Origin: Ceratodon purpureus
Lineage: Eukaryota; Streptophyta; Bryopsida; Pseudoditrichales; Ditrichaceae
Length of the DNA: 64,000 nt
Direction: 5' to 3'
NCBI GenBank assembly: GCA_014871385.1
Contig: CM026431.1
Location: forward strand, 11,933,594 to 11,997,593
Part shown: positions 1 to 64,000 of the stretch, in pieces
Numbering within the stretch: the stretch's first letter is position 1
Layout of the letters: the number at the start of each line of letters is the position of its first letter
The notes under the pieces: model-generated
Seen by the model: only the letters and a program-made list of their open reading frames with translations
Databases searched by the model: none
What the model was told of the DNA's origin: nothing
Program-made: the position numbers and the translations under genes

Positions 1-70
1 CAATTGAGAGTTGGCTTTCTACTCATCTGAAACTCAAGGGTATTGTAACTCTGAAGTACTGTTCATGTAC

Positions 71-14238: not shown

Positions 14239-17200
14239 TCAGGGGGGCTGGAACACGAAACCGCCAGCTGGCCCTTCAGGGATCCACTGCGGGGCACCGT
14301 TACTCATACTAGCGAAAAAGGAAAATCTACACCTTCTAGCAATGAATTTATCAAGGTTCTCGTCAAGCTTCTCAATCATCTTCGGAGTCTTGACATGGAT
14401 ATCAGCCCATTCGATTCTGCCGTAGTCAAGCATGCCGTTCCAGATATGCTGCAAAAGCCTAGCAGGAGGCCACACTTGGTTGTTGAATGCCATATCGTTG
14501 CGCTCCAACCACAAACCCCACATCACAACCGAACGGAGTTCCAACCAGATGCGTTTGAATGGATCAAACTTGCGAGGGATCCTGTTGGAAAAGATCCCTT
14601 GTTTCCAAGTGAGAGGTCTCCATGGCCCACGAGCTTCACGGCCAGCAAGCAAGGAGTTCATGAGGTGGATCGCCCACTGCCAGGCACGTTGGGCAGAGTG
14701 GCATTCCCAGAAGCGATGAAGAACTGACTCTTCTGATCGGCGGGGACAAACAGGGCACCTGATGTCGACCGTTCCGTCGATGCGCCCCCTCCAGTGGTTA
14801 ACAGCTACGGCGCGGTGCCATATCAACCAAATCAGCCCAGCCTCTTTGCGCGTGCGTTCCTTAGCCCACACAGTCTTCCATTCAAGCCGAAAGGTGTCAG
14901 GCAAAACTCCTCCCCATTTCCGGGTCACGGGGTTATGAACTTGGTGTCGGGCTTTGAGTAATTTGCGCCCTATCGAGGCCGTGTACCCCATTAGGTAAGT
15001 GGCATCCGGGACGTCGTATTCCTCGGGCCATTGAAACTTGTGGGGATCCCACTGCAGTTTGTCAATGCGCCCATAATAATGCCGGACTCGAATCTTCTTG
15101 GGACCTCTACGAACCTCCACAATCCGAACTCTGTGGAATTCCCCTACACAAGAGGGGTCTTCACTGCTCAACGAGAGGTCGGGGATCTCTCTAAGGATGC
15201 AGGACGAAGGAAGGACAAAGTAGCATGGGTCGTCGTCTCTAGGCCGCCACCGATGGGCTGGTGGGCCAATGCGAGCTCGGGTGCGAGCAGGAACCTGCAC
15301 TACCCAGCGGGGCGTGTCTGGCTGATCGGTGGTGAACCACCCCAGCCATTCATCTTCTTTGGCAGGCGGGGCTGGCGAGTGAAGGAGCCCTGCCCAGCTG
15401 CTTGAGAGCGCCCCTGTGACAGCATCCCACGCTCCCGCCTCATCAGGCCGAAGGCCAAAGCGGGTCCCAGCTTCAGCTGCTGTAAGGAACCTGTCGCTGG
15501 TAATGGCGTCCTTAATCTGCCTAAGCCCTTGCCTGTGGAGCTGAGCAGCTCGTGACTTAGCGAAGCCGGGGCCAATCAGTGGTTGAAACGCGGACCACCA
15601 GAAGGATTCAATAGCTACTTCCTCTGGGAGCGAGGGCCGTACCGCTAGAAGCTCTGGCTGAAGCTTTCTCCACGACGTGCCGACCCTGTTCCAAGTTTTG
15701 GATCCTTTTGATGCTTGAAAGTGAGGAATGGTGAAATAGTCGAGACTAGGCGCCCATCGCCCACCGGCGTAGGGTTGAAATCGGCTGAGTCGATATCTTA
15801 GAAGCTCATGGAGATTCGAGGTGCCTGGCTCGCATGCTTTGACGATCCACTTGGACATCAGGGCAACCAGAGCGTCATCTGTGTTGATCACATTAATACC
15901 TCCTTTGTCCCTAGTTTGGCAGCACTGGAGCCACGAGACCTTCGTGCGTGCCCTGTGCATAGCTCCCGACCAGAGGTAATTGCGAATGGCTGAGGTAGCT
16001 CTTTGGATCCCTGCTTTCGTGCCTCCCCAAATAGAAGCGAAGTACATGATTGAGGAAAGCAGCACACTGTTGACGATGACGCTGCGCCCGGTTGAGTTCA
16101 CTTTAGCGGTACACCAGTATTTCAGCTTCTTGATGACCTTTTCGCCAAGGAATGTATCCACTGATTTGGAGGACAGGTCCATTCCAAATGGAGTGCCAAG
16201 AAGCTTGCTGGTGTTAGCTTCGTCCACCCAGGCTATATTCAGGTGAGATGTCCACGGTGGCCGAACCGGCATCCTCTTAGACTTCCAGAATCCGCTTGAC
16301 TTAGACCAGTTCAAGACGAGCCCCGAGGCTAAGCAAAACCGATCAAGGATATCAACAAGAGCTTTAACCGGTGCTTCCTCCCCAATAAGGGTGAAGGAAG
16401 TATCATCTGCAAACTGCGCCAAGACTTGTTGCTTCGCACCCCCGGGCAACCGAATACCTTCCACAATGCCTTCTGCAACCCCCTTCTTCACCATGGAGTT
16501 TAACGCCTCTGCGACAATTAAGAACAGGTAGGGTGCCAATGGGCAACCCTGCCTGACTCCCCTCTGAATGTCGAATTTAGGAGATTGAGAGCCATTGACC
16601 TTTACAGCAGCCGTCGCATCGTTGAGCAGCATCTGAGTCATCTGGATAAATTCCTTTGGGATGCCGATACCTGCCATTGCCCGAGCCAGGAACTCCCAGT
16701 CGACCATATCATATGCTTTAGAGAAATCTAATTTTAGGAAAATCAATGGTTGATCGGTGTGATCAGCCCAGGCCATGGTCTCGTGGGTAAGGAGGATGTT
16801 GTCCAAGATAAAACGCATCGGAAGAAAGGCAGATTGATCAAAATCTATGACCTCCATGAGAATAGGTTGGAGTCGGAGTTGAAGTGCCTTGGCAAAAACT
16901 TTGTAGGCGACGTTCAACAGAGTAATCGGCCGCCAGTTAGTAAGGAGATGTCTCACATCGCCCTTGTGCAGGAGAGAAATTAGACCCCTCGTGACTCCCT
17001 CTGGCAGCTTCTGGGCAGCCACAGCCTGCGAGATCATTGCGTGGTAATCCGTCTTGATGAGGTCCCAGAAGGTTCGGAAGAACTCCGTGATGACCCCATC
17101 GGGGCCAGGAGCCTTGCCAGGTGCCATACTGCGGAGGGCAATGCCCAGCTCACTCTCACTGATAGGGCGGCTCAAGGACTCCTTCATGGCTGCTGTGAGC

Positions 17201-18552
17201 CGGTCGTTAAGACTAGCCACGGCCTGATCGGCTGCTGCTGCTTGGGCCGGCGAGGGCCTAGGGGCGGTGTACAGTTTAGCGTAGTACTTAGAACACACCT
17301 CCTCTAAGCTACGCTGATCAGACCGGAGGATCCCATCTTCGTCTTCTAGTTCCGTGATGTTGGAGGCCCCCGTGTGGGCCTTCGAGGCTTTAAAGAATTC
17401 CTTTGTACACGCATCCCCCACGCTCTTCCATTTAACCCTGCTTCGAATCCTTTGGCCTTCGAGGAGGTGAGATTCAAACTCCTTCAGTTTGACACCAATT
17501 TCCTCGACCCGGGTTCGTGTTGGGCCGTCCTGGGGATCACGGTGGAGGGCCGCGTGGAGGCCTTCCAGCTCCTCTCTGAGTGTCACTTCGGCTGACCTGC
17601 GGTCTTTTGCCTTTTGGATGCAGAAGCGCTTATAAAATCTAACTACCTGTCTCAGTTTCCCTGTGAATCCTAGTGTCGGATTCTGGTTCCAGATACGTTC
17701 CACCTCCTCCTTAACAGCTTTATCTTTTAAGTAAAAAGCATTCATTTTGTAGGTGGAGCTCTTCGGACTGGAAGGAATCAGCTGAACAGTATGAGAAATC
17801 GGAAAGTGATCGGAGTGGTTACAATCACCTCGAATGGCATAGCTTGTCACCGGCGAGGGGCCTGCTCCAAGCTGAATGTAGGAGTAGCAACGGTCCAGTC
17901 TTGCCAGTGATCGGACCCCTGTTCGGTGCCTGTTATCCCACGTGAATTTGAGACGGCCACCAACCGGGAATTGATCAGCCACATTGAGCGCGTTCTTTAA
18001 TAGAGAGAAGACCCGGTCCTCCCCTACCGAAATAGTCCTGCCATTGAGATTGGACTTGTCCGCAGCCCGTTCAACTACGTTCCAGTCACCAATCAGTATC
18101 CACCTGCAATCCCGCGGGAGGGTGGTGAGTAGCTCTTCCCATAGAGCACACCTCTCACGGGGGTTGGTGGAAGCATAAACGTTGAGAATAGAAATATCAT
18201 CCCCGGGCACACCGTGCAACCTTGTCCACTGTGCACGCCCACAGGGCGAAGAACCTGACCCCACAATCAAATGGGAGAGTTGAGGAGCAATCCATGTGCA
18301 AACTCCTCCTGTACCTGCCCCAGGGTCCCCGGCTGCGTGACCGAATCCTACCGCAGCCTCAATACCCAAAAAAGTTGCCTGTGGCCACAAGCGGTGGCCC
18401 AATGCAGTAAGCTTCTGCCCTCGGAGGCGGTGCTCCTGTAGGCAGAGAATTTCAACCCCTGGTAAGAGCGGGCGGTAATAGTTTTTGACAACATCGACCT
18501 TCAAGGTGTCGTTAAGACCTTGTACGTTTTGAGAGACGGTCGTAATCTTCAT
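14239..18552 (-). CDS. LINE ORF2: endonuclease / reverse transcriptase
   Basis: 1437 residues. Residues 1 to about 252 form an APE-like endonuclease/exonuclease/phosphatase domain: SQNVQGLN near the start, LQEHR, GDWNVV at about 155-159 and SDHFPIS at about 246. The reverse transcriptase spans about 470-760, with GKAPGPDG, NWRPITLLN, KLDFSKAYDMVDW, RGVRQGCPLAPYLF and the catalytic FADD at 714-717. A zf-RVT region near the C-terminus has CPVC at about 1262 and a following H and WEC. The enzyme nicks target DNA and copies the element RNA in place. All expected catalytic motifs are visible. The start codon overlaps the ORF1 stop as ATGA (18552-18549), which suggests that ORF2 is translated by termination-reinitiation. 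I see no RNase H domain. Confidence 0.96.
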   Translation of the reverse strand: MKITTVSQNVQGLNDTLKVDVVKNYYRPLLPGVEILCLQEHRLRGQKLTALGHRLWPQATFLGIEAAVGFGHAAGDPGAGTGGVCTWIAPQLSHLIVGSGSSPCGRAQWTRLHGVPGDDISILNVYASTNPRERCALWEELLTTLPRDCRWILIGDWNVVERAADKSNLNGRTISVGEDRVFSLLKNALNVADQFPVGGRLKFTWDNRHRTGVRSLARLDRCYSYIQLGAGPSPVTSYAIRGDCNHSDHFPISHTVQLIPSSPKSSTYKMNAFYLKDKAVKEEVERIWNQNPTLGFTGKLRQVVRFYKRFCIQKAKDRRSAEVTLREELEGLHAALHRDPQDGPTRTRVEEIGVKLKEFESHLLEGQRIRSRVKWKSVGDACTKEFFKASKAHTGASNITELEDEDGILRSDQRSLEEVCSKYYAKLYTAPRPSPAQAAAADQAVASLNDRLTAAMKESLSRPISESELGIALRSMAPGKAPGPDGVITEFFRTFWDLIKTDYHAMISQAVAAQKLPEGVTRGLISLLHKGDVRHLLTNWRPITLLNVAYKVFAKALQLRLQPILMEVIDFDQSAFLPMRFILDNILLTHETMAWADHTDQPLIFLKLDFSKAYDMVDWEFLARAMAGIGIPKEFIQMTQMLLNDATAAVKVNGSQSPKFDIQRGVRQGCPLAPYLFLIVAEALNSMVKKGVAEGIVEGIRLPGGAKQQVLAQFADDTSFTLIGEEAPVKALVDILDRFCLASGLVLNWSKSSGFWKSKRMPVRPPWTSHLNIAWVDEANTSKLLGTPFGMDLSSKSVDTFLGEKVIKKLKYWCTAKVNSTGRSVIVNSVLLSSIMYFASIWGGTKAGIQRATSAIRNYLWSGAMHRARTKVSWLQCCQTRDKGGINVINTDDALVALMSKWIVKACEPGTSNLHELLRYRLSRFQPYAGGRWAPSLDYFTIPHFQASKGSKTWNRVGTSWRKLQPELLAVRPSLPEEVAIESFWWSAFQPLIGPGFAKSRAAQLHRQGLRQIKDAITSDRFLTAAEAGTRFGLRPDEAGAWDAVTGALSSSWAGLLHSPAPPAKEDEWLGWFTTDQPDTPRWVVQVPARTRARIGPPAHRWRPRDDDPCYFVLPSSCILREIPDLSLSSEDPSCVGEFHRVRIVEVRRGPKKIRVRHYYGRIDKLQWDPHKFQWPEEYDVPDATYLMGYTASIGRKLLKARHQVHNPVTRKWGGVLPDTFRLEWKTVWAKERTRKEAGLIWLIWHRAVAVNHWRGRIDGTVDIRCPVCPRRSEESVLHRFWECHSAQRAWQWAIHLMNSLLAGREARGPWRPLTWKQGIFSNRIPRKFDPFKRIWLELRSVVMWGLWLERNDMAFNNQVWPPARLLQHIWNGMLDYGRIEWADIHVKTPKMIEKLDENLDKFIARRCRFSFFASMSNGAPQWIPEGPAGGFVFQPP

Positions 18553-20666
18553 AGCGGGGGTTGGGGGGGGGCAGGGTCCGGGAACAATTCGGCACTCCTT
18601 GTGTCTGAGGTGGAGTGCTCTGGCCGAGGTGTCTCCCTCCGTTGCTGGAGGCTTGAAGACCTTCGTCTCTGAGCAGAATCTGAAATAGCCTGTCTTCGTG
18701 CGATTTGGCTGGGGGTGAGGCCGCCTCTCCTCGATTGAGGAGTGAGCTCAGTTCCTCCATGTTGTTGGCGCAGCCATTCAAAAAATTCTGCTTGAAGGTC
18801 TGCAGGTATCCCTGACTGGACCGGAGTGTGCGGGGTGGTAGTTCCTGAACCTGCCCGGGTGAGCTCCGCTGAGGGGGTATTGACTCGAAGTTGGGGGGGA
18901 AAAGCCTCTGATGCCTCCCCTCCACTATTCGAGACGTGGGCAGATTCTGACGCCACCGCTATTGCGTTTAAATCCAACACCCGGTCAACGGGCGGTCGGG
19001 GTTGAGTGCACTGAATGCTATCACTTGCCCCCGGGAGGGCTGGGGGTGGCATGAGAGAGGAGGGCGAGCGAGGGTCCTGCCGAGGTTGCCCTTGGGGCCC
19101 GAGGAGACTGCTCAGAGGGGGCCTCAATCCTGTGGTGAGGTTCTCATCGATGTCCATACCAGCGGGCCCCTCGGTCTCGTGAGCTGTCTGCCCACCCTGA
19201 GGCAGAGGCTGTTCCATCGCCCTGTTCAGAGGGAGCGAAGTCTCCGTACCGGAGGGTATGGGAGCTGGAGTGCTGGCAGAAGGCCGGGGGTACGTGAGGT
19301 CTGAAGAGGGGAAGGGCCTCGCGATCTCTGAGATGCTGCGTTGCTCCACCCGCCTCAGGGTTTTGCTGGTCTGACGTCTTCTCTCTTCCTCGGGGCGACC
19401 ACTGTCCGCAGAGGGGGCTTGAATCTTCACATGCGTAAAACCTGTCGGAGTTCTCACACGTGATTGCACTGTCGGATTACTTCTGCTCGACGGTTTCTTC
19501 TTCCTTGCTACCTTCTCCCATCCGTTCCATTCATACTCGGGGGTGTCTCTTGAAGAGCCATTCGAGTAGTGGTTTCCAGAACGACTTGAGGTGCCTTCGC
19601 CCCCTGCTACCTTATCTGAGTGTCCCGAGGATTCATCGCTCTCGATCAAGATGGTGGGGTTTTGTCCGTCGACGGGCGGAGGCGGAGGAGGAGCTAAGTC
19701 TGTGGGGGCTTCGGTGGTACCTTCGGCCCGAGTTTCCCCCTCGCCTGAGTCAGTGCGCAGGGCCGCACTCTCTCCCTCCTCTGCCTCGCCAGGTAAGGTT
19801 GGCCGCTTAAACCCTGGGCATTCCTTAATCAAATGCTCTGTTGAGTGACACAATCGACATCGAATGGGCAGGTTGCAATAGTCAACCGAAATGAGAATGT
19901 TCTCCTTTGTACTCTCGTTGGTAACCGAAAGTTGGGTTGTCCAACCGGTCCCTGATTGGAGCGCCACGCAGAACCGCTGATCAGAGACGAAAGCGTTACG
20001 CTTGTCGCTGCCGAGCAGCTCCCCTAAGCCCCCTGCAATGTCCTTCGCCACCCCTAAGAATTCACCAGGGATACCTCGGAGGGTAACCCATGTCGGGACC
20101 TTGAGTCGCGTGGGGTGGCTTGCATTAAACCCCGTGGCCCACGTCTGGATGATGCAGGTTCCCCAGCGTGATCTGTGTGGAGTGCGCATAAGCAATTTCT
20201 GCGTAGCAACAAACTGTCGAGTGAGAACTTGAAAAAACCCCTGGCCGAGGTCTCTCCCGAGACCGACCCACTCACCAATCTCTGCCTGCATTGCCGTGAT
20301 CCATTGGTTGAGGATCGGCTGGGCTTGTCTCCCTCCTACAAAGTAAGCCACCACGGCGTGGCGTTGCAATCGGATCGTCTCCTTTGCCACAATCTCTTGG
20401 TCCACTTTGACTTCCAAGACGGTATTGCAGATGAGGAATCCGGTAGAGCTTCGAGCATACCCTTCTGGAAGGACTTCACCTGGCGTAGGTACGGTGGGAT
20501 GAATCTTCGCGTGTCGTCCCATGTTGGTAACCGCAGCCACGAATTCGGGCTCCACAGCATCCTTCGGGTCTTGGCGTTGGTCTTCGTGAGATTGGGGCTG
20601 AACTGGCGCCACAGGCGCATGCTCCAGCTTCGCCCGAAGAGATTCCGCATACGTTGGTTTCTCCAT
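18549..20666 (-). CDS. LINE ORF1: nucleic-acid-binding gag-like protein
   Basis: 705 residues, starting in a good context (AACCATGG). Residues of about 90-265 resemble the DUF4283-type region found in plant LINE ORF1 proteins (ETIRLQRHAVVAYFVGG, then LKVPTWVTLRGIPGEFLG). It is followed at about 271-284 by one perfect CCHC zinc knuckle, C-x2-C-x4-H-x4-C (CRLCHSTEHLIKEC). The remaining 420 residues are rich in Pro, Ser, Glu and Arg and are predicted disordered by composition. The protein is expected to coat the element RNA and form the retrotransposition particle. It overlaps the next ORF by four bases. Confidence 0.92.
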   Translation of the reverse strand: MEKPTYAESLRAKLEHAPVAPVQPQSHEDQRQDPKDAVEPEFVAAVTNMGRHAKIHPTVPTPGEVLPEGYARSSTGFLICNTVLEVKVDQEIVAKETIRLQRHAVVAYFVGGRQAQPILNQWITAMQAEIGEWVGLGRDLGQGFFQVLTRQFVATQKLLMRTPHRSRWGTCIIQTWATGFNASHPTRLKVPTWVTLRGIPGEFLGVAKDIAGGLGELLGSDKRNAFVSDQRFCVALQSGTGWTTQLSVTNESTKENILISVDYCNLPIRCRLCHSTEHLIKECPGFKRPTLPGEAEEGESAALRTDSGEGETRAEGTTEAPTDLAPPPPPPVDGQNPTILIESDESSGHSDKVAGGEGTSSRSGNHYSNGSSRDTPEYEWNGWEKVARKKKPSSRSNPTVQSRVRTPTGFTHVKIQAPSADSGRPEEERRRQTSKTLRRVEQRSISEIARPFPSSDLTYPRPSASTPAPIPSGTETSLPLNRAMEQPLPQGGQTAHETEGPAGMDIDENLTTGLRPPLSSLLGPQGQPRQDPRSPSSLMPPPALPGASDSIQCTQPRPPVDRVLDLNAIAVASESAHVSNSGGEASEAFPPQLRVNTPSAELTRAGSGTTTPHTPVQSGIPADLQAEFFEWLRQQHGGTELTPQSRRGGLTPSQIARRQAISDSAQRRRSSSLQQRRETPRPEHSTSDTRSAELFPDPAPPQPPL

Positions 20667-20933
20667 GGTTCCTCCTCAAAACCCTAAAAAACTACAAAAC
20701 CCTAGATCTCGAATATCAAAAAATTCCACTCCACCCAAATCCGGTTCAACTGTTTGCAAAACGTCTGAACAAAAGGATTTGCCTATCGCAAACCACACAG
20801 ATCGGGATTGAGCAACTAATAACACGGCCGCAAAGGATCAATAATCTGCCCTAAGGCGCTCTGAAACAGAGCGTACCCTCGGAGCTGCATTGCACCGTCT
20901 TTCCATGCCTCTCCAGCATTCAATTGCATTGCC

Positions 20934-48545: not shown

Positions 48546-51500
48546 ATGGAGGGTCGGAGGAGCGGTTTTGGTGATGCTGCGGCGCGGCGGACGTCGGTGC
48601 TAGCTAGGCAGCTGGCGCAGGAATTGAGTCCGGTTTCGTTTCTGCAGCCGGCGCCGTGCCTGGCGTATCAGCCTCCGGAGTTTCATTCCGGTGCGTTGTC
48701 TAGCTTTTTCGGCAACCCTTGTTTTTGTTTCGGTTTTTTGTGTTTCTGGAGTTTTTGTATGTGAATTGGTGGTTGTTTTAGATAATTGGTGAGTGTTTTT
48801 GAGGAGTAGGAATTAGCTGTGGGATAGCGTGTTTTGTGTACTTGGTTTTTGGATAATTGGTTGAGTGTGGGATTAGGCTCAAGTTTGGTGGTGATGTGTA
48901 ACAGACAAGGCCAGCTTCGACAAATCGGCTATGAGGGAGTTGCTGGATGGGCACGATGTGAAGCTGAGGGACTCTTTTACGGATTTGATGTTAAGCAGCG
49001 ATCTGTTTGTGAGCAAACGAGTGGGTGACAGGGTGTTTGCCACTCCGAACTTCAACTCGACGATGGAAGAGCACAGGGAGAAAACCCTAGACCGCATTCT
49101 GTTCTTCCGGAGCAAGGGGGTGTTCAAAGGGTGGTTGACGGACTCGTCTGTCGAGGATGCTCTGAGACGGGCTGCGCTTTTTGAGACTCTTGGCCTCTTT
49201 GATCACTCGCTCGCCATCAAGCTTGGAGTGCACATTCATTTGTGGGGCGGTGCCATTCAGTACTTGGGAAGCAAACGGCATCACGATAAGTGGTTGGCTC
49301 TTACTGAAGCCTACCAAGTCCGTGGCTGCTTCGCTATGAGCGAACTCGGCCATGGCAGTAACGTAAGTACTTGAAGCGATTGCATTTTAAATCAAAGCAG
49401 AAAATTCCTTGAAGTTTTTTTTTTTTTTTTTTTTTTTTTTTCCTCTTTTCGAGATCCCGTAAGAAAGAGTTGGTAATTTTGAAATGGGCAGTATTCAATT
49501 TTGATGATTATGGAGACGTTTCCGTTATCGTCATCATCGAGAAGTATTAAGTTTCTAATCTGGTGGCTGCGTGCTCAGGTGCGAGGCATTGAAACTGTGA
49601 CTACCTATGATCCTTCGACAGAGGAGTTTATCATCAATACTCCATGTGAGTCTGCTCAGAAATATTGGATTGGAGGAGCTGCACAGGTGAGTGTTAGCTA
49701 CGGTGATGTCCCTGTCTAACTTTAAATTTGGTCAATTAGGTTTTTGTTTCGGTGTGATATGGTGCCAAATTGTGGGCGGTTTTGGGAGCTTGAAGTGGGT
49801 TTTGTTCTCACTATATTCTTTAATTATTTCGCAGCATGCTACCCATACAATCGTCTTCTCGCAACTTTTGATCAACGGGAAGAATGAAGGCGTTCATGCT
49901 TTTGTCTGCCAAATTCGAGACCAACATGGACGCGAATGCCCTGGGATTCGCATTGCCGATTGTGGTCACAAGATTGGATTGAATGGCGTGGATAATGGTC
50001 GTATTTGGTGAGTCTTACCTTCACCTCAATTGTACACTTCAACCTAGGTTTTCTTTATTGACTTTGAGCTTGAAAACGCAACTAAATAAAATTGTGTGTT
50101 TGAGACTGCCAATCCACCACGAAGGGTTGGTAGTATATTGTTGTAAAAATGAACAAAAAGTGACATTACATTGATTACGTACACTTTAAAGTAGGTCCTT
50201 ATTTTGTTTTCTCAAGGATTCTGGGAAGTAGTTTTAAGTAACTCAAATTGTCCTGTCAGGTTTGACAATGTGAGAATTCCTCGCGAGAATCTGCTCAACG
50301 CAGTAGCAGACGTTACTCCAGATGGAAAATACGAAAGTGCAATCAAAGATCCTGATCAGGTTGGTGTTCTCTCTTCACTTGAATGGTCCATCGCCAGCTT
50401 GTGTTCATTAGTTCAACTCAAACTCAGAATAAGTATGTTCGTATTCGCATCTGTTATGTGTTCTATGAAGCATGGTAGGTCGGACTTTCGATGGATGTGT
50501 TCATGTTAGGTCGGACTTTCGATGGATGTGTTTAATCATCTTTTGTTCCAGAGTTACAGTCTTACTGTGTTTCTCAACAATCATTTTTTCTGAATATCAC
50601 TGCTGATTGATTACGAATTCTTGCAGAGGTTTGGTGCATTTATGGCTCCTCTTACATCAGGTCGGGTTACGATTGCTGTAAGCGCTGTCTATCAATCAAA
50701 GATAGGCTTAGCAACAGCTATCCGATATGCTCTAGCAAGGCGTGCTTTCTCGTTGACTCCAGATCAGCCCGAGGTGCTTCTTTTGGACTACCCTAGTCAT
50801 CGACATCGGCTGCTTCCTCTTTTGGCCAAAACGTACGTATCCTCGTTACTGTTCTGTCTACTATCAACTTGCAAATGCCGAAGAGTCTCCATTTTTTTTG
50901 AAGTTCGTAAAATCTTTCGACCTAAGGCTTGTATGTATGGTTGCCAATGCAGATATGCAATGAGCTTTGCTGCCGTGGATTTGAAGAACTTGTACGTGAG
51001 ACGTAAACCAGCGGACTCAAAAGTTATTCACGTCTTGTCTAGTGGCCTGAAAGCAGTCCTCTCATGGCACAATCTTCGCGCACTTCAGGTTTGTGTCAGC
51101 ATTTCCTATGCAATCATCAATGCTACTATAACATATTAGGTACTTAAATGTTTTTTGTTAATTGGTGGATTGAAGGCCTCAGTTTTTCAGTGTAAAATAT
51201 TCGTCCTGCAGGAATGCCGAGAAGCATGCGGAGGCCAGGGTTTGAAGACTGAAAACCGAGTCGGGACGCTGAAAGCTGAGTATGATGTCCAATTGACTTT
51301 CGAGGGAGACAATAATGTCTTAATGCAGCAGGTTTGGCCTCCTAGACCCAGTGGATGATATTTGGTACTCTGGGTTTATGAGATTTTCCTCACCTGAATT
51401 TTCGTCCGTTCCGCAATGTGTTATTGCTTGTCTGTGACATTAAGTTAATTGAGTTCTGGTTATTCAGGTCAGCAAAGCACTGTTGGCCGATTACTTGGCG

Positions 51501-52703: not shown

Positions 52704-54242
52704 AAGTGCTCTACTGGGAGCTGCATTGATTCTCCACATCCAAGATCTGTCACTAAGTTCATAATCAATCCTTTTGCAGAGGCCATTTTCGGCTTTATCA
52801 TTTGTCCGGAGTTGTATAGAACGCACACATTAGTTCGGACAAACGCGTTACTGGTAGTGTATCATCAGTACCTGCAACATTAATTTAGTTTGGACAAGGG
52901 TATATACACCATTTGACAAGCTGTTACATATTACACGTAATCAAATCATATTCATAATATTAACAGTGATTTTCAAGAAGGTATAGCCACTTGAATTATC
53001 TCAATTGTTGAACAGAGAAGCATCTCAACTATTCGTTCTACAATCGTCTCAAATGTAATTTGGCCCAAGAGTTTTCTCAGTTGTCAATTGGCGTTCTAAG
53101 AATGTATGAAAGTTGTCATTATATAGATACTTTCCTGTGCACAATGTTTTATCATATCATTGAAGGAATGGATTCAAGCATCTTAGATATGATAAAACAT
53201 TCTCGTCGATGTGTTGGCATTCTCGTCGCCTGGCTCCAAGATCATTGAAGTGGAAATTAAGTGAGTGAAAAAGTTGGAAGCGGAAATTCAATCAGATTTT
53301 TCAGAGACCAGATTATCGAAAAAGGTGCAGACGAAACTGTTTACAACTTTAATATTCTTTATACAAATTATACTTATGAATTCATTACAAGTATCCCGTG
53401 GAACAAATCTTTTATCACGGAACAGCTAGTTACGTGCACTGTTATCAATCTAAAAGCCTCGACTCTGCTAATTCAAATACGGGCGTATCCGCTGTCATCG
53501 CGGACACTCACAGTGAACGTCATTACGTCAGCGACATCGCTGATGTCACTGATGCTCACGCCCGAGGGAGCGCCGTTGTAGGCGTTGGTGGAAGGATTGC
53601 TAGTGGCGTTCACGAGCGGGGAAAGTTCGTATGGTAGCGGCGAGCGGCGAGCGGAGAGCGGCGAGCAGAGATGGGAGAGCAGAGATCTGACATTTTACAA
53701 AATTTTTGGAAAAAGAAATGCACCCTATAGCCGTGGAGAAGTACTAAAATTAGTGTTCTGTTTTTAGTAATTAGCTAAAAAAGGATAATTAATTCCGTTG
53801 TATTATTATTCGAAACTACTTTATTTCTCATTCACTTATAAACGACATCTATGTAGAGAAAGAAAATTAGGGCTGACGTCGTGATGACGTCATCATCAAA
53901 GCTATTAAGTGAGAATACTTAGAGTAAAATGAGGTCCAGGTCTTCTTCGCTTCTGGTTCAGTGAAAGAAATCTAGCATTGCAGATAATATACCTTTGAAA
54001 ACTTCTTTGGATATTTCAGAATAGGTGTACAATAATGCTTATAATGAGTCCAAAATTATATACCTCCTAGAAATGCCTGAAATTATTGTTAGTCTCTTTG
54101 TCTTCGGATATAATCTGCTGTACCTTTATAATTCAAGTGTTATACTATATAAACCTAGGTGGGTTGAGTTCAACTTATTTCAATCAGCGGTTGGTTTTAT
54201 GGTAGACATAGTGTTGCTTATGGTAGACATAGTTTTGAGAGT
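52704..54242. other. 3' UTR of the oxidase gene and spacer with bZIP-type motifs
   Basis: No gene recognised. The first few hundred bases are likely 3' UTR. Between 53520 and 53900 there is a cluster of ACGT-core motifs. A short tandem duplication, TATGGTAGACATAGT, lies just before the ORF that starts at 54243. Confidence 0.5.
53525..53893. promoter_or_regulatory. Cluster of TGACG/CRE-like motifs
   Basis: ACGTCA at 53525-53530, TGACGTC at 53875-53881 and the palindrome TGACGTCA at 53886-53893, the last inside a longer symmetric TGATGACGTCATCA. These match binding sites of TGA/CREB-type plant bZIP factors. Function is inferred from the motifs only. The nearest downstream frame is the ORF at 54243. 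Confidence 0.35.
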
Positions 54243-54755
54243 ATGAGCAATTCCATTGAAGTCATTGCTTGTGAAACAATTCTTCAGGATTTGCTACAAA
54301 GGATGGCAGATGGACCTAACCCTTGGGAGTCAGTGGGATCTTGTATAGGACAGTCTTGGTTTCCTCCACCAGTAATTACATTTCAAGATGTTGAGAATGC
54401 TCGTGCTGTTTCGAAGCTTTGGAGACGGGAGATTGACAGCAGTACAGAATACGCTTGCCTTCGACTTGCCAAGTGGGATTATGATTCATACACGGGAGGG
54501 CACTGGACTTCCAGGGATGAGTTTCAAGCGGTTCGCTTCAATGTGAACTGGAACATTTTTAGGAATTCATGGTCATTAGCAAATCCAATTGGAAATGACA
54601 GGCTAGAGACAGCGTCACTTGGGAAACTTAGCTGTAATGAGTTAGATCAGTTGAGGACATTGTTAAGTAGCAATGGTAACCAATCTCTGTGGCTTGAACA
54701 TGGAGAGAAACTTATTCCAGGTGATGGTATTTGGGTTTCACCTAAACATAGATGA
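54243..54755 (+). CDS. Unrecognised protein, 170 codons
   Basis: Single open frame with ATG in an acceptable context (GAGTATGAG), no intron seen. The translation is of normal amino-acid composition with many Trp and Leu (SWFPPPVITF, AVSKLWRREIDS, TGGHWTSRDEFQ, SLWLEHGEKLIPGDG). The segment NARAVSKLWRREI followed by ACLRLAKWDY faintly recalls the region after helix 1 of F-box proteins, but the LP/xP start of an F-box is absent and I do not assign it. It may be a whole small gene or a fragment. Confidence 0.45.
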   Translation: MSNSIEVIACETILQDLLQRMADGPNPWESVGSCIGQSWFPPPVITFQDVENARAVSKLWRREIDSSTEYACLRLAKWDYDSYTGGHWTSRDEFQAVRFNVNWNIFRNSWSLANPIGNDRLETASLGKLSCNELDQLRTLLSSNGNQSLWLEHGEKLIPGDGIWVSPKHR

Positions 54756-56131
54756 GTATGGTATGTTTATGAATATATGGATCCAACATTTTTGCACACG
54801 ATAATAAAATGTTGTTAGTTCGAAAAACAGATATGTCTAGTCTGGTTTAGGGAGAATCATTGTATTCATAAAATCATACCATATTCAAGATGCTTAATTA
54901 AGTTTATTCCATTGTGTTGCTACATGTTTATTCAATACGATTTAATAATATTTCTATAACTCTATAATAGTCTTCTCTGTAATTTCTTTTTTTTCTTTGT
55001 TTTTTTTTTTAACATATACTTGTATCACGCATTATCAAGAGACTTCTAAATATTCTCTAAAAATTTCCATTTAATTCTTTAATTTTATCATTCTTGCATT
55101 CCCGAATCATTTTAAATTTAATTCACCTTTATGTACTGCTTATGTTTTAGAACATCCTTTTTTCATCCCTTTTTTCTTAATATCAATCTTTTTAGTAATT
55201 ACTGTCTCCTTATAATTACCAATAATTTTTAGTAGTTTCACACCTTATATTTACTGTTGCCTTATCCTTATTATTTCATCTCTTCATCATCAACTACGTC
55301 CAGTTTGATTTAGGTTTTCCATTCATATTTATCATCTTCTCTTAACTGGATCACTATCATCCTGTCTAGAAAGTTAAGTTGAATGGTTTATGGGTGACAT
55401 GTTACGGTTCAGCAGTAAATGGCATTGGCACATTTAATGAAGCCAAACGATACCATGTCATTGTCTAAGGTACTTTGAAGAATTTACGCCAAGACCAAGT
55501 ACACTTATACCTGCTCCCTGGATTTACGCTCTTGGTTCTTTTGTCTGCTGATCTCCGAGGGTCTACACTTGTTATGTGTGTATCACAGAAAGCATAGTTT
55601 AGCGAGAAGGGGTTTTTTTTCTCAGAACGTGGTAGGTCAGTGCATAGCTCATTCGGACAATACATTTCTGGTTCAGTTTCTCATTGACAATCACCCTCCA
55701 AGCTCCATTGTTGATGCAGCTGGGCTGTCGTTGTACACTTAACTATCCGAATTCTATGTTTCTAATTTTTACTCTTATCTCCTCTGCCCCATGCCTAAGT
55801 CTGGCCTCTATTCAGGATTTTCTGGACGTTGTGGTTGGAGCACCGTCAAACTCCACTTTCAGTTCACCTCGGACGCTTCAAGCTTCAAGCCCATAACTTT
55901 CGTAACTTCGAGGTACTATTTCATATGTTCTTGAATTGGAACAAGACATTATCATTTCTTAGTAAACAGGAACTGTTAAAATGTAAGTAAGGATTGATTT
56001 AAAGGCCATTGATTTTCATGGCAACGAATTAGTCAATCTACTACTACTTCTGAACCCATTCGCATACGATAAGGGTTAAGTCAAGAATCGTTTTCCATAT
56101 TTGAAAATAGTGTTTGTCTTTTTCCTTGCAG
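54756..56131. other. Interval without a supported gene
   Basis: AT- and pyrimidine-rich to about 55350, then more balanced. I looked here for the missing N-terminal exons of the SNase-like gene and found none that continue its frame. Confidence 0.45.
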
Positions 56132-57226
56132 GGTTTACCGGACTTTTATCATCTACCTTGGTCGAAATCTAACAAGCCAACTGGTAAACCAGCGCCTGAA
56201 GTGATAGTCCCTGAAGCTGATGGAGCATGGCCTGAAGATGTAGAATACGAGATTCGTACTTTGCCGGTATGCATTTATGTTATCATATGGTTTTTTTACC
56301 CCTAATTTTGAGATCTTCCATCAGACCAGCTTAATCTGTGTACTTACAAGTACATGCTTGCTTGAGATCATTGTGTGGTGCACTAGAAGTTGTGCTGTTT
56401 GAGGTGCATTTGGACTTCGACACTAATCCCCTTGTGTTTATCAAATCTTTCCCTGAAACTTAGATATCGACCCTTACCGTAGGTTCATGAGGCAGCAGCG
56501 GGAGACGGAGACGGGCTGACTGTCTATGTGGATGTGTATTAAGATGCGAGAGAGAAAGGAAGTCTGCCAGTAGAGATACGAGATACTGTTATCAGAAGGC
56601 GGGACGCTCGGGCAAAGAGAGACTACAGAACTGCAGACGCTCTGCAAAAACTAATAGAGAAAGCGATCTACAAGTCTGTCCTCGCTTCATTATATATATT
56701 TCATTGGATTATTCTTTCGACTAGTTTGATCGGACCCAGGTAGAATATCTCTCTGTTTACAAGATATAGTTCTAATTGGCTGATTTCGTTCCTGTCCGCA
56801 GGGTTTTCGATGGAAAGTCCGGTGGAATTCAGTGCCTAGCACGCAAGTACCGTATCCGCCTGAAGTACGTTCACTCCATCACCACATCAATCCTTTTTTG
56901 ATCCAGAGGCTGTTTTGTCATCAGAGCCAATTCTCATTTCACCTTGTTAATTCTTGGAAGGGGTGTAGAAGCACCAGAGATTGAGCAACCTTATGGCGAG
57001 GAGTCCAAGGATAAACTCAATAACCTTGTGAATGGTCACCGGCTTGTGGTTCATGTGTACGATAGAGACCTATATGGAAGGGCAGTTGGAGATGTCCACG
57101 GCAATGGTATTTTCATTCAGGTATGCATTTTTGTATCTAAAAAATCATCTCTATTATGATTCTTCGTATGTTGCCACAGGCTTTGTAACAGATTACTACT
57201 TCTCCAAGCCTGGAGAATGGGATTAG
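56132..57226 (+). pseudogene. Plant SNase-like (staphylococcal nuclease fold) gene, broken
   Basis: Related to the plant calcium-dependent SNase-like nucleases (CAN family). Exon-like blocks with good splice sites: 56132-56266 (GLPDFYHLPWSKSNKP, VEYEIRTLP), 56483-56673 (AAAGDGDGLTVYVDVY, then IRRRDARAKRDYRTADALQK), 56802-56864 (QCLARKYRIRLK), 56961-57120 (GVEAPEIEQPYGEESKDKL, DRDLYGRAVGDVHGNGIF). The frame is continuous across all four, but a TAA at 56540-56542 interrupts the second right after VYVDVY. The N-terminal half of the family is not found upstream. After GIFIQ the expected LKKGLAWHYTAYD region is missing; a shifted remnant SKPGEWD (ending 57226) recalls the usual SKPxxPWEW end. In the core, the loop residues normally D-G-D are present, but an APE replaces the usual APE/APEN run. 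Most likely a decayed copy. Confidence 0.8.
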
Positions 57227-57491
57227 AAACAGTACGCATAATTGATATGTAACATGTGTGTAAGTATTTTGTTTTGGTATGGGGTTCCATTAGGAGGTAC
57301 TTCTGAAGGAGCCATGTTCGCCATTTTAACTTCATGTGCTTCTCAATTTGGTCAAGTTTTTCAGAGTTTGCTTGTTGGTGGGACATGTCAGCGAATGAAC
57401 AAATGTTGATTACTATATGCTCTAAATGCTGTATACATTTTGCAGCATTGCGGGAGAAGCTGTTAAGTCCTTGGTCTAGTCTGTTACAACA

Positions 57492-58976
57492 ATGACGTCT
57501 AAAAGGAGTAGAGTAAATAGGAATCAAAGGCCCAAGAATTCAGGTCCTTCTTCTCCTCCAATGGAAGCTGCCGACAGTGGTGATGAAGTGGCCCAGAATC
57601 CAGTGGAAGAGTCATTGATTGAGCGCTCCTACTGCGCAGAGGAATTCGATCAGCCGTTTGACCTAGGAGATATACAAGGAGAGATTCGCGAGAAGATGTT
57701 ACTTGTAGCTCCAATGCTGCTGGGTCAATATGCTGAGTATGGTAAAGATTTCTTCGTGAATGTAGTTGGATTATGTGATCAAGGACCACGAATCCGGGAT
57801 GTGGCAAAAGTATATCCATTTATTAGGGACGAAGAAATTGGTGCAGTCTGGAAAGAAGGGGCAACAAAGGGACGCTACGAGCTAGCAAGGTGCGAAGATC
57901 TTGTGTTGTTGAAGAAGTTCCGACATCATTTCTTCAAGGTCTATGGTAACAAGCCTGACAATACCTACTTTCCTTTGCGTTTTCTCAAGGCTTGTTATGC
58001 AACCTTTGTGCATAACAAGCCTGTCAACTGGTGTGCTGAGGCCCTTGATCGGCACAGAGCAAGACTGAAGAATGCTAGGCGCAATCCGGCTAAGTTGGGC
58101 CCCATTGCGACTCGATGTCAAGTTCAGGGTCTGTGCAAAATAATCCAGGAATTGTCATGGAGGTCTGGAGAAAATGCCGCGAATGTGCAAGAACTCTTAG
58201 CTGCTCAGGAGGAAGAGCAGGGGCGTAGTAAGGAGATGCTATCAACCAAAGCTATCTTTGAGGATTCTGTGAAGAGATACGATGCAGCCTTGGAGAAGAT
58301 GACTACCGAGGCTTCAGAAGTCGCGGAGGAGGCTCTGAACTCGAAGTATTCAGAATTACAGAAGAAGTCAAGGCGCGTCTTAATTGAGGGGGGAGCAGCG
58401 CAGGAATTCAAGGCATTGACAACGGAGATGGAGTTCATTTCAGCTCAAGTTTCAAAGCTACGAGATGCTGATACACAACTACAAAATCGAGTACTTGAAC
58501 TGAGGTCGGAGGTAAATAAGCACAAATTCTCATTGAATTCATCCACTTTGGCATGGGAGAGCGCTAAGGCTAATGTGGAGAAGGTTAGAGGAAAAATGCT
58601 TACCATTAAGACTCCAAGAGTATTCGATTATCCGCATGAGTCAGTACCTCCTTTGGGTATTTTGGGGCAGGATACTTGTTCTTATTGCGGCTTAGGATTT
58701 GTTTGGAAAGCCGCGGTCCTCTGTTCCTGTGGGTGCTTCTTGCATCCTTCTTGCATTGCAGAATTGGTTGCTAGTCAGAACTACAAGTGCAGAAAGTGTA
58801 AGGACCGGCTACTGGCATCGTCGCCCTTACATTTCACAGGTCAATGGGTAGCTCAGTTTGGTGGAGAGTTGGACCAACAACAGCGAATTGAATGTGCGGG
58901 ATTTACAGACGTTCTTCGGATAGTAAAAGAGCAGACCCAGAACTTTGGAGCTAGTGCACATGGAGCCAAGGGGTAG
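57492..58976 (+). CDS. Unrecognised coiled-coil protein with C-terminal C4HC3 zinc module
   Basis: One intronless frame of 494 residues starting AACAATGACG. A basic, Ser/Pro-rich N-terminus (1-30) is followed by an acidic linker, then a globular-looking region (about 60-215: DFFVNVVGLCDQGPRIRDV, YPFIRDEEIGAVWKEG, RHHFFKVYGNKPDNTYFPLR). A long Glu/Lys/Ala-rich segment (about 220-370) has the pattern of a coiled coil. Residues 396-436 hold C-x2-C-x11-C-x-C-x4-H-x2-C-x11-C-x2-C (C396, C399, C411, C413, H418, C421, C433, C436), the ligand order of PHD or RING-CH fingers. I do not recognise the family. It could be a chromatin reader or ubiquitin ligase, or a protein derived from a mobile element. 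It is convergent with the methyltransferase-like gene 2.3 kb downstream. Confidence 0.8.
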   Translation: MTSKRSRVNRNQRPKNSGPSSPPMEAADSGDEVAQNPVEESLIERSYCAEEFDQPFDLGDIQGEIREKMLLVAPMLLGQYAEYGKDFFVNVVGLCDQGPRIRDVAKVYPFIRDEEIGAVWKEGATKGRYELARCEDLVLLKKFRHHFFKVYGNKPDNTYFPLRFLKACYATFVHNKPVNWCAEALDRHRARLKNARRNPAKLGPIATRCQVQGLCKIIQELSWRSGENAANVQELLAAQEEEQGRSKEMLSTKAIFEDSVKRYDAALEKMTTEASEVAEEALNSKYSELQKKSRRVLIEGGAAQEFKALTTEMEFISAQVSKLRDADTQLQNRVLELRSEVNKHKFSLNSSTLAWESAKANVEKVRGKMLTIKTPRVFDYPHESVPPLGILGQDTCSYCGLGFVWKAAVLCSCGCFLHPSCIAELVASQNYKCRKCKDRLLASSPLHFTGQWVAQFGGELDQQQRIECAGFTDVLRIVKEQTQNFGASAHGAKG

Positions 58977-61268
58977 AAAACAGTTAGAGGATTTTTGAAT
59001 TGAAAGAGACAATACATTTTGATGACAATTGTATTTGATTGCTGTTTATTATGCAATTCCTCGAAACTTATTTCCTTCTTTTAATACTTCAGGTTTTAGC
59101 CACCTTGTTTTATAGTACTATTTGGATATGAACTATTTGAACTTTTCTTCATAAAATCAGGATTCGAATTTCTCACAATCATAATAACTTAGATTCGATA
59201 TTAACATTCTATTGTTGATTATCTACGCGGCATTTAGAAAGAGAAACTGTAATATCTGAATACAGATATTGATCCTAAATGAAGACACTAGGCAAGTTTT
59301 GTAAAGAATTTTACGAACATTGGGTCTTTCAGTACTCTGTTAGAAATCCATTATTTACCACATGAAAGGGACGGTTAGTATTAGAGGGTTGAATTATATT
59401 ATGGGATTGGTTTTTGCTCCAATGTGAGATCAATCTGCAGATAAATGTACACTCACAGTATTAGCACAGTATATCAGTGTTATACTGATTCCCGAATCAG
59501 CAGATGGAAGTACTTCTTTGTAGAATAATTGCGGCATGTAATAGTTAAGTAAATCATAATATAACCGTATATATTATAACAAGGAATGTATGAAAAATTA
59601 GTTGTTAGACAATAATACATTAATATGATGGAGTTGTAGGTACTTCAATAATAAACATTTTGTTTCTATTTTATTGCGTGCCAAAGTAATTTTTGCAAAA
59701 TCAAGTTCATGAGTTTATTAACTTTATAAAACAAACATAACTTAGTATGGAATTCCTCAGATGATTCCACTATCAATTCCTACTCTACTGCATCAGAGGA
59801 ATCCAAAAGGAATTCCTTTCTTCAAGCAAGGCTCAAGTGGATTTAGTCAACGTCATCCATTCCCTATCCGGTCTTCTGCATTCGTACAGCTTATGTGGTT
59901 GAAGTTGTAAATCAAGAGAGTGACATAATTGTAAATGTAAGTGATACAATATTCTAACATAGACTCAATCAGTTTCATATTAAAACCATGTCTATATCTG
60001 ATAGAATTATAGTATCAGTGGAGTTCAGAAGTGGATAAAAAAATAAAAAAATTACATGCGTCGGTTAACCCGCAAAAAAGAAACTAAATTTTCAAACTTA
60101 CAGAAGATGTTAACAATAAGTTAGTCTACTTAATTACTGTATCGGTAATGAGGCCGCATTAAACTTTCTTCAAAAAAAGATGGTACCCCAAGGACCAAAA
60201 AATGAGCAAAAGCAAGTCTTTTTAATATCGTTATTAAATGTGCATGTACTGTCACTTGATGGATTAAAGAAAATTACTCTATTCCATTGAGTTATTTTTT
60301 TAGGAAAATTCAATCGTCTAACACATTTCAAATCAGCAGAAAATGGAAAGAGCAAAAGCAGGTCAGCAAAACTGAATTGTGTATATTTTACTTGGCTTTT
60401 GAGAACTTAAAAATTACAAATCTTAGGGGTCTAATTCATTATCCTGCAAAACTCTATAGGAAATTCGAACTTCATTATGATGATTACAAAGTAATTTTTG
60501 ATAACTTAAAAAGTACAAAACTTATGGGACTACTTAAAGCTCCATAATCATAGAGCCAGTGCGCAAGCTGACAGATTAAACTACACTAACTTTGAATTAG
60601 TATTAATCTACCAATTTCAGATGCGTTAAGTTTCAACTCACCGCCTGAAAGGAAGTGAGCTGATTTCTGGAAGGTGACATAAAGAATAATGTTGAATAGG
60701 AGGTCGTATTAATCACCAATACCGGCTCAGTTCGCTTAATTTTAATTTTAATCTTATGACTCTGTGACCTTCTGTAAGGCAGTAGTTTCCATTGAAAGAG
60801 GTTCAGCTACGTGATGTTTATACATTACGTTACCGATAAGCAATTCTAATTTTCAAAGATTATTTTTCGCAATTCAACCAAGTTGCATTCAGATTCCGAA
60901 ATGTTCATCTAAAATTGCCAGGATGAATGTATTGTTCATACAGTTATCGGTTCTGACTGCGTGGTTTTATACGTTGAATTGATGGAGGAGGATTTCATTG
61001 AAAACAATCAAAATTCCTTAACAATTTATTTGGGCGTCGTTTGTGGCCAATTAAGATTCAGGCTGCTAAGCAAAAAGCAATTCCGAAAGAGGAACTGGGT
61101 ACTCTTTTGAGGTCTATAAATCTACTGTGTTTCTTTTAAACAAACATCTAACAACAGAGATGAACAAAACAGAGGAATTCACAGTGACATCTTCAAAATG
61201 TAAATTTTCATGTCAATGCAATAAGACTGAGATCCTAAATGGAGAAACAACATGAAAAAATTAGACAG
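58977..61268. other. Interval without a supported gene
   Basis: AT-rich spacer between two convergent genes, presumably including both 3' UTRs. The frame at 60287-60547 and its opposite-strand partner have no recognisable family. Confidence 0.5.
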
Positions 61269-63614
61269 CTAGGGAGAAAACACATCGTCACTTTCTATTG
61301 CACTGTGATCAATGAATTTGACAACTCTTGGATCATAGCTACGTGGTGAAGATGATGCACTGGAACTATGCTCAGACTCTTCAGCAAGGACCTGGGCTCT
61401 TGCCTCGGCATAGCATGGGAGACTCCAGGTATGTTCCCAGTCGTAGCCTGACTCAGTGGAAGGTGAAGTAGCACTCATGCGACTGCATGACAGATCTCAG
61501 AATTTAGCATTTAAGAATTCAAACATAATAAATATTAAAAATAGCAAAAATTAAATTCAGCGTGAGCAAAAGACTTACTCACATAAATCTATTTTATCCT
61601 CCTCAGGATATGGAGCTTCCTCATCAGACAGCTCTTGGACTTCAGTCTGGTCTTTCCTCGTTGTGCCAATGAGAGGCACTTGAAGTGATAGCAATACCTC
61701 CCCATAAATGTCCCGGTCCCCTTCAAGCGCAACGATGTTTCTATTGGTTGCTATTGCAGCACGGATTGAGGCACCTGTACAAATAAGTGATTTCCATGGT
61801 AAATAGCAGTAAGCATGATCGACTGATTGAAAATCATTTGGTCAAAACAAAAAATTAAATGAGTTGAAATGTGACCTGTTCCGGCTGTGAGGTCGATGAT
61901 GGTACCATGTAACGGACAGATTCCTGCGATGAGGGATTGAAGTAGGGCAAGAGATTTCTCTTTCGGGCCTCTCCAAGGCATTCCATCTTCCTTTTTGAGA
62001 CAGTCCTCCAAAGTAACCCAGTTAAACAGCACGTCGTCTTTTGCGAGGTTAGTCAGTCCAACGCCCTGGCTGGAAGGGAGGAGAAGAGGCTTCGGCTGCC
62101 TGGCCACGTTGGCACCAAAGGATCTCACAAGCAGGTATGCTTTAAATTTTAAAGTCTGATCATTAAGACAAAGCGAACATCAGAAGAAGCATCTTACAAG
62201 TAATATTCATGAGTCAAAAAAAAAAAAACAAAAATAATAATGTAACTCACATAACTGTCGGGGTCTGTGGGATGTGACAAGTGGAGAGCGTTGATTATGG
62301 ACCACTCCTTCAACTCCTTGAGGTCGTTGTTGTTGAGAAAGGCAGTCAACTCTTTCTTAATATGTGAACTATCCGGAGCAAAAATCAACAACGCTCCATC
62401 ATCATGCAAATAGCCCCCGCAAAATCCAATGACAAACTTCATAAAGAATTTGATTTGCTGGTTCCAGGCAGGTACTTGGGAGGGTGGGTCTGACACTCCA
62501 GGAACCGGGAGGCCGTCAGGAAGATCCGCTATAACAAGGTCAACTCCAGGCTTTGACATCAGTTTCCCTCCAAAGTGGAATTCCCGATTCGCACCAGTCT
62601 GGATTCACGTAAGAGGCAGAAAATTAAATGATGAATTCAGAATAAAACATCAAAATAAACTACAAAATGAGTGGATATTAGAAATACCTTAAGAAGAAAT
62701 GCTATCATGGTGTCGAAAGATTTTGGAAATTTCTTCTCCTTGTTCTTGTACTCCATCATCTTTGGAAAGGTGTCGTTGAGGACCAACACCTCAGAGGAAT
62801 GTGCTGAGCTGGACGCAGGCTGGGATATAACCAAGGATTTCAGCGATGGGGGGATAAGTGGGGTACCTGAAGCAATCTCCAAATCTTCGACATGCGGCTT
62901 CTTGTGAACCTGCTGCGTTGGTCCAGGTGACTTGGTGCGATTTGGTGCTATCACAGGGGGCGCTTCTTTCTCAACTAACTCACCGCTCGCAGCGGTTGTT
63001 GCAGGAATGTCTTCATCTTGATTCTCTTCTATCAGATCAGTTGCTTTGCGTTTGGCACCCCGAGTTTTGCTTGCCCCAGCTGCCCTTCTAGACTTCTTTG
63101 TTGCCACAGGTGACACATTCGCTTTAGCTGGAGCAGGGGCAATGTTTGCAAGTGTTGGCTGAAGGGAGTCTCGCAGCTGTATATCAAACGGAGGTGGTTT
63201 CTTCACCGGGCAATCAAGATACCAACCACATCGATCATAGTGGCAATTGTCCCATGCCTTCAAGATGGCACTTGTATACATGCACTCGGGACTTGTGACG
63301 TCAAGATAAGTGGGAAAAAAGGCAGGTACCCGCGTCACTGCTTTCCGAGGAAGCAATACGTATTTGAAATATCGGTAAAGGATCCTTCTCAAAGCTGGCT
63401 GAAAATTAGGCTGTTGGTCCTTAGTTTTATTCTTGTGTGCCTGATCAGCCCCCATGAATTCTCTGAAAAATGCATTGTCCCAAAGGGAGCAACGCATGGC
63501 TTCCACATAATCAAATATTTTCTCAATAGGATTCTCGCCATCAGGGCAGTAATTAATGGTAACCCCTAAGTCGGTGACAACCGCCTCAAATAGCTCCTCA
63601 GCTTCTACTGCCAA
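61269..63614 (-). CDS. Permuted amino-methyltransferase-like protein, 3' exons (partial)
   Basis: Exons: 63614-62688, 62598-62251, 62155-61876, 61774-61579, 61482-61269; 1965 nt, 654 visible residues, then stop. The frame enters from an acceptor at 63615-63616, so earlier exons lie beyond the window. Residues 1-150 are globular with Cys/Trp-rich GWYLDCPVKKPPP. About 170-300 is a low-complexity basic linker (KKSRRAAGASKTRGAKRKA, nuclear-signal-like). The C-terminal part looks like a Rossmann-fold methyltransferase in permuted order: DLVIADLPDGLP (about 329-340) where DNA/RNA amino-methyltransferases have DPPY, a strand reading GALLIFAPDSSH, then IIDLTAGTG (about 511-519, the AdoMet-binding loop) and VALEGDRD (about 535-541, acidic residue that would hold the ribose). 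The tail is acidic and Ser-rich. DLPD in place of DPPY makes catalysis uncertain. I do not know the family. Confidence 0.8.
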
Positions 63615-64000
63615 CTGAACAATCAACGATGTTATTAGCAATTGAGCATCATAAGAAACAAGCATCAAAAACAGCATAAAAAGTAGCTGCTGTCAACTGA
63701 TGCACTAAAACACAGTATCATGAGTGCCAATCAGTCGAAAAAAGAAGGAAGACTCTGGTACTGCCGTTAACGGCAGTACATTGGAAGTCTCTACCGGCAG
63801 AACCAAAAAAGCCCTGAAATGTACCGCCGTTAACGGCAGTACCGAATTTGCTTATTTTAATTGTAACTGAACAGTCAAGGAGACTAAAAGCAATTAGTTC
63901 TCAAGCATTGAAAATATTTAAAATAGTAGGATAACATAACAAATTCAAAATAACATTTGCTGAAACGAAGCCTAATGAAAGACTAAGGTACTACAACTGA
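63615..64000 (-). other. Intron or upstream region of the methyltransferase-like gene
   Basis: No exon recognised; likely intron, since the next exon begins right after an acceptor. Contains the paired palindromes listed separately. Confidence 0.5.
63758..63842. repeat. Two 22-bp palindromes around GTTAAC
   Basis: GTACTGCCGTTAACGGCAGTAC at 63758-63779 is a perfect palindrome (first 11 bases GTACTGCCGTT). The copy at 63821-63842 differs by one base (GTACC instead of GTACT) and so has one mismatch. Centres are 63 bp apart, and a half-like CTACCGGCAG lies between them at about 63791. Confidence 0.9.

Follow-up and report, generated by a model that had tools for sequence, protein, structure and literature searches.

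A methyltransferase-related accessory gene and helically phased palindromes in a repeated DNA transposon of the moss Ceratodon purpureus

In the open-licence literature, the transposon-encoded anti-silencing that we found in print is VANC of Arabidopsis VANDAL21. The VANC report (PMC5735166) describes arrays of a 9-base motif in the introns and upstream regions of VANDAL21; VANC binds this motif and brings about loss of methylation throughout the element. Like the Mutator-type VANDAL transposons presented there, the moss element analyzed here is a DNA transposon with an accessory protein and with a dense short motif in its non-coding parts, including introns. However, the moss motif is longer, palindromic and helically phased, and the moss protein is a different one, related to methyltransferases and matching no other domain in Pfam scans. 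Anti-silencing in the moss is a proposal by analogy.

Transposons with methyltransferase-type genes have also been described, namely retrotransposons with C5 DNA methyltransferases (PMC5890265) and DIRS1-like elements with a methyltransferase domain. The methyltransferase-bearing elements in these accounts are retrotransposons, whereas the moss element is a DNA transposon and its protein has an altered motif IV. Phage ParB-methylase fusions (QBX29237.1, WCZ55008.1) resemble the moss protein in combining an N-terminal module with a C-terminal permuted methyltransferase, but they keep DPPY where the moss has D[LF]PDG, and the moss N-terminus was not supported as ParB. Mutator-like transposons share terminal inverted repeats and a target duplication of about 9 bp with the moss element, but the moss transposase is without a match to their MULE transposase domain. 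Among open-licence papers, we found none on the moss element or its gene.

The transposon and its genes

The window, i.e., the whole stretch of 64,000 nucleotides that was analyzed, corresponds to C11:11933594-11997593 of the 362-Mb genome. Comparison of ten copies, together with extension past the window end, identified a transposon unit of 21,620 bp at 53617-75236 in extended coordinates (window numbering continued beyond the window end at 64000). The features are as follows, in order of position.

53608-53616: 9-bp target-site duplication, GTTCACGAG on the plus strand; second copy at 75237-75245 (extended)
53617-64000: part of the transposon inside the window, from copy comparison and ends; continues to 75236 (extended)
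from 53617: left terminal inverted repeat, GGGGAAAGTTCGTATGGTAGCGGCGAGCGG on the plus-strand side
57480-58976, plus: second accessory open frame, with a coiled coil and a cysteine-rich, RING-like end (weak match)
61269-61482, minus: exon 8, C-terminal tail and stop
61579-61774, minus: exon 7, with ALEGDRD
61876-62155, minus: exon 6, with motifs X and I
61877-61894, minus: AdoMet-binding loop DLTAGT (motif I)
62251-62598, minus: exon 5, with motif IV and the following strands
62512-62526, minus: altered motif IV, DLPDG (canonical DPPY)
62688-63614, minus: exon 4, with a conserved globular start and then a basic linker
63615-64637 (extended; 63615-64000 inside the window), minus: intron 3
63760-63777: palindrome ACTGCCGTTAACGGCAGT, exact
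63823-63840: palindrome with one change, 63 bp after the exact copy; more copies follow past the window end
65051-64638 (extended), minus: exon 3
65337-65139 (extended), minus: exon 2
65977-65422 (extended), minus: exon 1
68610-68349 (extended), minus: exon 0, acidic
69800-73538 (extended), plus: probable transposase

The termini of the element are inverted repeats (GGGGGTAGCTTGTATGGTAGCGGCGAGCGG / GGGGAAAGTTCGTATGGTAGCGGCGAGCGG, both read inward), flanked by 9-bp duplications (CTCGTGAAC at the window element, CTCGTCGAA at a copy on C5). Such a target duplication was present in both of the two copies with both ends in hand. The copy on C5 is 99.2% identical to the element in the window. Given the inverted repeats, the 9-bp duplications and this nearly identical copy, the window element is a DNA transposon with Mutator-like ends that has probably moved recently. 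Repeat structure, inverted repeats and target duplication also rule out that the gene discussed below is an ordinary methyltransferase gene of the host. A preliminary description of this locus had spoken of an unfamiliar plant protein; the methyltransferase relation stood, but the sequence belongs to an accessory gene of a repeated 21.6-kb transposon and not to a single-copy host protein. Rfam and tRNA scans of the window gave no match.

The span 61269-63614, previously taken as the protein, does contain five coding exons, but they are only the C-terminal part of the gene: exons 4-8 (minus strand, 63614-61269) of a predicted nine-exon gene, with four further exons 5' of the span (68610-64638, extended). 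Joining exons 0-8 yields a predicted protein of 1131 residues. The borders of exons 4-8 are AG/GT, and exons 1-3 join in frame. Exon 0 was found in all ten elements (tblastn E-values from 2e-61 to 0.007), and its donor (AAG|GTAAGC, phase-1) matches the phase of exon 1.

The gene structure is largely shared between copies. We could map 17 of 19 copies over exons 1-8, while another copy is without exons 1-3. Exon borders are mostly conserved in copies that are about 25% diverged, with an altered border in several copies. An internal stop is absent from 8 of the 17 mapped copies; in two of these eight (C6a, C1_23.7), one or more borders deviate at the projected place.

A 1.2-kb gene query matched the genome with 75-100% identity at the best 40 of 96 candidate places. 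An exon 5 query found at least 150 places (the best 150 of 1743 candidates), down to 52% identity and mostly open, and an exon 1 query also found at least 150 places (the best 150 of 1851 candidates). The contig C6 (110.5 Mb, 30% of the genome) holds 22 of the best 40 places matching the gene. Among the 17 mapped copies, stops occur in 6 of 7 on C6 versus 3 of 10 on other contigs. No relatives outside the moss genome were confirmed in viral and prokaryotic contig collections.

The methyltransferase-like gene is under strong purifying selection. For the whole gene, dN/dS was 0.06-0.13 in nine copy pairs (overall dS up to 1.6). By region, the values were 0.03-0.10 for exon 1 (three of the nine pairs being saturated), 0.02-0.08 for exons 2-3, 0.02-0.04 for the start of exon 4, 0.14-0.25 for the linker and 0.10-0.24 for the methyltransferase part. 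The values bear on the idea that the element merely captured a host gene and carries it as passive cargo. Mutator-type elements often pick up host genes, as described in PMC6446971, but passive cargo is very improbable here: dN/dS is much smaller than 1 in copy pairs whose overall dS reaches 1.6, a value near 1 was looked for and not seen, and exon 5 and exon 1 each have the many related places reported above.

At least three open frames of the element are conserved. The frame at 57480-58976 has dN/dS values of 0.16-0.23 (five pairs), and its RING-like match reached E=0.25 in Pfam and E=4 for BRE1 in the PDB. In a profile scan of the probable transposase pieces, the MULE domain PF10551 was absent, and a SWIM-like finger (0.072) was outscored by an unrelated family (0.027). 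A genome search with PF10551 placed none of the best 150 of 384 candidates at the window element. Comparing the C11 element with that on C9 gives a dS of 0.11 for the transposase and of 1.34 for the methyltransferase-like gene. This difference points to exchange of modules between subfamilies, with a similar transposase now traveling with old, diverged versions of the methyltransferase-like gene.

Palindrome arrays

The element contains many copies of the palindrome GTACTGCCGTTAACGGCAGTAC. Allowing as many as 4 changes over the 18 bases, we counted 22 copies in the window element, of which 17 are exact; the gene model places 15 of the 22 in intron 0 and 7 in intron 3. All ten elements carry 16-22 palindromes (5-17 exact), with none in the mapped exons 1-8. 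In the whole genome, a 20-base core was found 646 times as an exact match (reversed control, 0), and a 16-base core 1286 times when one mismatch was tolerated (3 for the control).

Among the exact matches listed, 41 of 43 sites on C1 fall into five clusters beside gene copies, and two are solitary. Three of the five clusters adjoin copies that are only 58-60% identical in exon 5. Conversely, four of the nine C1 gene copies (among the best 150 exon 5 matches) have no exact site nearby among the matches listed. CpG ratios did not distinguish introns and flanks.

Spacings between palindromes are multiples of the DNA turn. The best period for the window element was 10.57 (R=0.88). Pooling the distinct spacings of eight elements (n=61) gave R=0.55, and 0 of 20,000 random draws were as high at 10.5. 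With a period of 10.56, derived from pooled data that include the elements tested with it, p was at most 0.011 in each of ten elements, against a null of random spacing (used because a control with other repeated words gave a single usable word); these p values are not independent, because the elements are related, two pairs are near-alike, the period comes from the same data and some spacings recur through tandem duplication. The element on C9 phases less well (own best period 10.99; p=0.05 at 10.5). One element with 60% identity in exon 5 has six sites spaced at exactly 212 bp, or about 20 turns.

Judged from their sequence and arrangement, the palindromes look like putative binding sites, and their phasing suggests that a dimeric protein binds them cooperatively along one face of the helix. 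A role in pre-mRNA, by hairpins or by pairing between copies that affects splicing or makes double-stranded RNA, would also fit sites that are self-complementary and located in introns 0 and 3 of the gene model. This role is improbable, as RNA hairpins would not be expected to be spaced by DNA helical turns, which is the pattern in 10 of 10 elements. For DNA sites, the binder could be a protein other than the methyltransferase-like one. With at least three conserved open frames on the element, the palindromes might serve the transposase, the RING-like protein or a host factor, as an enhancer or an aid to transposition, and the methyltransferase-like protein would then have another target, such as RNA or protein. 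However, the sites lie in introns of the methyltransferase-like gene and not near the element ends, where transposases usually bind. We therefore consider this alternative rather unlikely, and favor binding by the methyltransferase-like protein.

The methyltransferase-related part

The preliminary description had noted a motif IV-like DLVIADLPDG, followed by DLTAGTG and ALEGDRD, downstream of a basic linker. All of these are present in this sequence order on the minus strand, distributed over five exons; the last G of DLTAGTG is split by an intron, and the linker upstream of motif IV reads KKSRRAAGASKTRGAKRKA.

Its proposal of kinship to permuted amino-methyltransferases also held. PHROG_3008 'DNA methyltransferase' was matched with E=1e-6 by the window copy and 1.5e-8 by a sister copy. 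Comparison by hhalign gave 96.9% over 59 columns with four phage methylases, and 9.3% for the methyltransferase part with the two phage ParB-methylases. Pfam N6_N4_Mtase, the sole match in Pfam scans of the protein at the limits used, covered motifs X-I-II with E=0.047 in the window copy and 0.0008 and 2.6e-5 in two sisters, all below the curated cut-off. A PDB search with the methyltransferase profile returned nothing significant, the best entries being two DpnA (0.76, 0.99) and two bleomycin-resistance proteins (1.2, 1.5). A relation of the C-terminal part to permuted beta-class N4/N6 amino-methyltransferases over motifs X-I-II is supported by these profile comparisons. The moss protein shares with this class a significant profile match to motifs X-I-II and, with motif IV assigned tentatively, the order IV, X, I in sequence, but its Pfam scores are under the cut-off, and its methyltransferase is one part of a predicted 1131-residue protein encoded with introns.

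A further difference to the beta class concerns motif IV. The catalytic motif of beta-class enzymes is [DNS]PP[YFW], and its aromatic residue stacks on the flipped base in known members. We compared 18 distinct open exon 5 sequences, 52-100% identical to that of the window. Their motif IV follows the consensus [D/N/E][LFIY]PDG, with D (15), E (2) or N (1) as the first residue, P in 16 of 18 and DG in all 18. Conservation of DLPD had been set beforehand as a check on the proposal of an altered DPPY motif, and the proposal was upheld: the canonical motif did not occur, with an aromatic fourth residue in 0 of 18 sequences and D in its place in every one. Two stop-containing exon 5 sequences, outside the 18, have DFPDG, and one phage methylase has DLPYG, which is near the moss DLPDG.

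We assigned motif IV by position and by local alignments; of 30 comparisons, 24 put [DEN]xPDG opposite D[LP]P[YF], and the scores were weak (z from -1.0 to 5.6). Single-exon AlphaFold models, which bear on the predicted Rossmann methyltransferase fold, were of low confidence (pLDDT 44 for exon 5 with 18 rows, 36 for exon 1 with 12 rows).

Because DG replaces the canonical residues in all 18 open sequences, with P before it in 16, the change in motif IV is, at the sequence level, a stable replacement and not the decay of one copy. The methyltransferase part probably keeps an AdoMet-type core. Since motif IV is without its aromatic residue, a binding module or an altered enzyme is more likely than a standard N6/N4 methylase, consistent with the earlier wording of a modified enzyme or a binding-only relative.

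An active amino-methyltransferase could, despite the altered motif IV, mark the element's own palindromes (on the GTTAAC adenines or CCG cytosines, for example) and so change how host silencing or the transposase treats the element. A palindrome is a symmetric target, the AdoMet loop DLTAGT[GS] and the next acidic position are conserved in open copies, and dN/dS in this part is low. Nevertheless, activity is unlikely with the aromatic residue missing throughout and the first residue of motif IV varying between D, N and E, and the methyltransferase part is less constrained than exons 1-3.

No relative of the N-terminal domain was identified in profile searches and comparisons. A ParB-like N-terminus, prompted by VWDGNHRLQAW in exon 1, was supported by none of the tests. 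A search of the whole moss genome with PF02195 returned 0 candidates (a control matched in 11 of 14 genomes), hhalign of the moss N-terminal domain versus ParB gave 0.1%, and the exon 1 alignment was too shallow for a usable AlphaFold model.

A genome search with PF01555 had 33 of the best 150 of 773 candidates over the cut-off. The best match, at C8:9595672-9596436, covers nearly the full domain (E=1.4e-6) with one stop, and could represent a gene or pseudogene for an unrelated amino-methyltransferase of canonical type.

Proposed role and surroundings

The span at 61269-63614 would encode the methyltransferase-derived C-terminal part of an accessory protein that belongs to the 21.6-kb moss transposon. 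The preliminary description was confirmed as an observation and was half right as an interpretation, and the transposon system in which the span lies is the larger finding.

In the reading that we prefer, with a probability of roughly 40%, this accessory protein on a methyltransferase fold would bind GTACTGCCGTTAACGGCAGTAC cooperatively, as a dimer on one face of the DNA, and binding to the phased palindromes would keep its own element expressed in the manner of VANC. We infer the role of the accessory protein as palindrome binder, the intactness of its fold and the anti-silencing effect. A self-directed, VANC-like role is put first because phased sites lie in the gene of a protein from a DNA-modifying family, and because of the basic linker, the strong selection and the missing catalytic aromatic. 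The element also has its motif arrays in non-coding parts, as in the VANDAL transposons.

More tentatively, the moss element may have arrived at the VANC strategy independently. A methyltransferase turned sequence-specific binder would coat the element via phased intronic palindromes and block host silencing, with diverged versions of the protein in several subfamilies, some perhaps with other palindromes. We regard this wider version, by analogy to VANC, as doubtful.

If true, the preferred reading would add a second anti-silencing system, one that uses a methyltransferase scaffold and whose likely target, a palindrome, can already be seen. The contest between transposons and silencing could then be tested in mosses, and a new module for sequence-specific DNA binding would be available. 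Should only the structural facts stand, the analysis still shows that at least 150 genomic places resembling parts of methyltransferase-like genes are members or derivatives of a gene family of transposons.

The surroundings of the element contain other coding sequences. When the flanks (up to 53616, and from 75237 in extended coordinates; minus strand) are joined, an open frame runs across the insertion point, one side of which has a weak match to an immune-inhibitor-A-like metallopeptidase (PF20774, E=0.027). The transposon may interrupt a host gene in the sequenced individual. About 4 kb from the transposon, at 48895-49374 (plus strand), an exon resembles the acyl-CoA oxidase N-terminal domain (E=0.00012, just under the cut-off). 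Farther away, at 14239-20675 (minus strand), the window contains a LINE-type retroelement with a 1502-codon frame, which has reverse transcriptase (E=3.9e-32), endonuclease and zf-RVT domains, and with a second frame of 708 codons.
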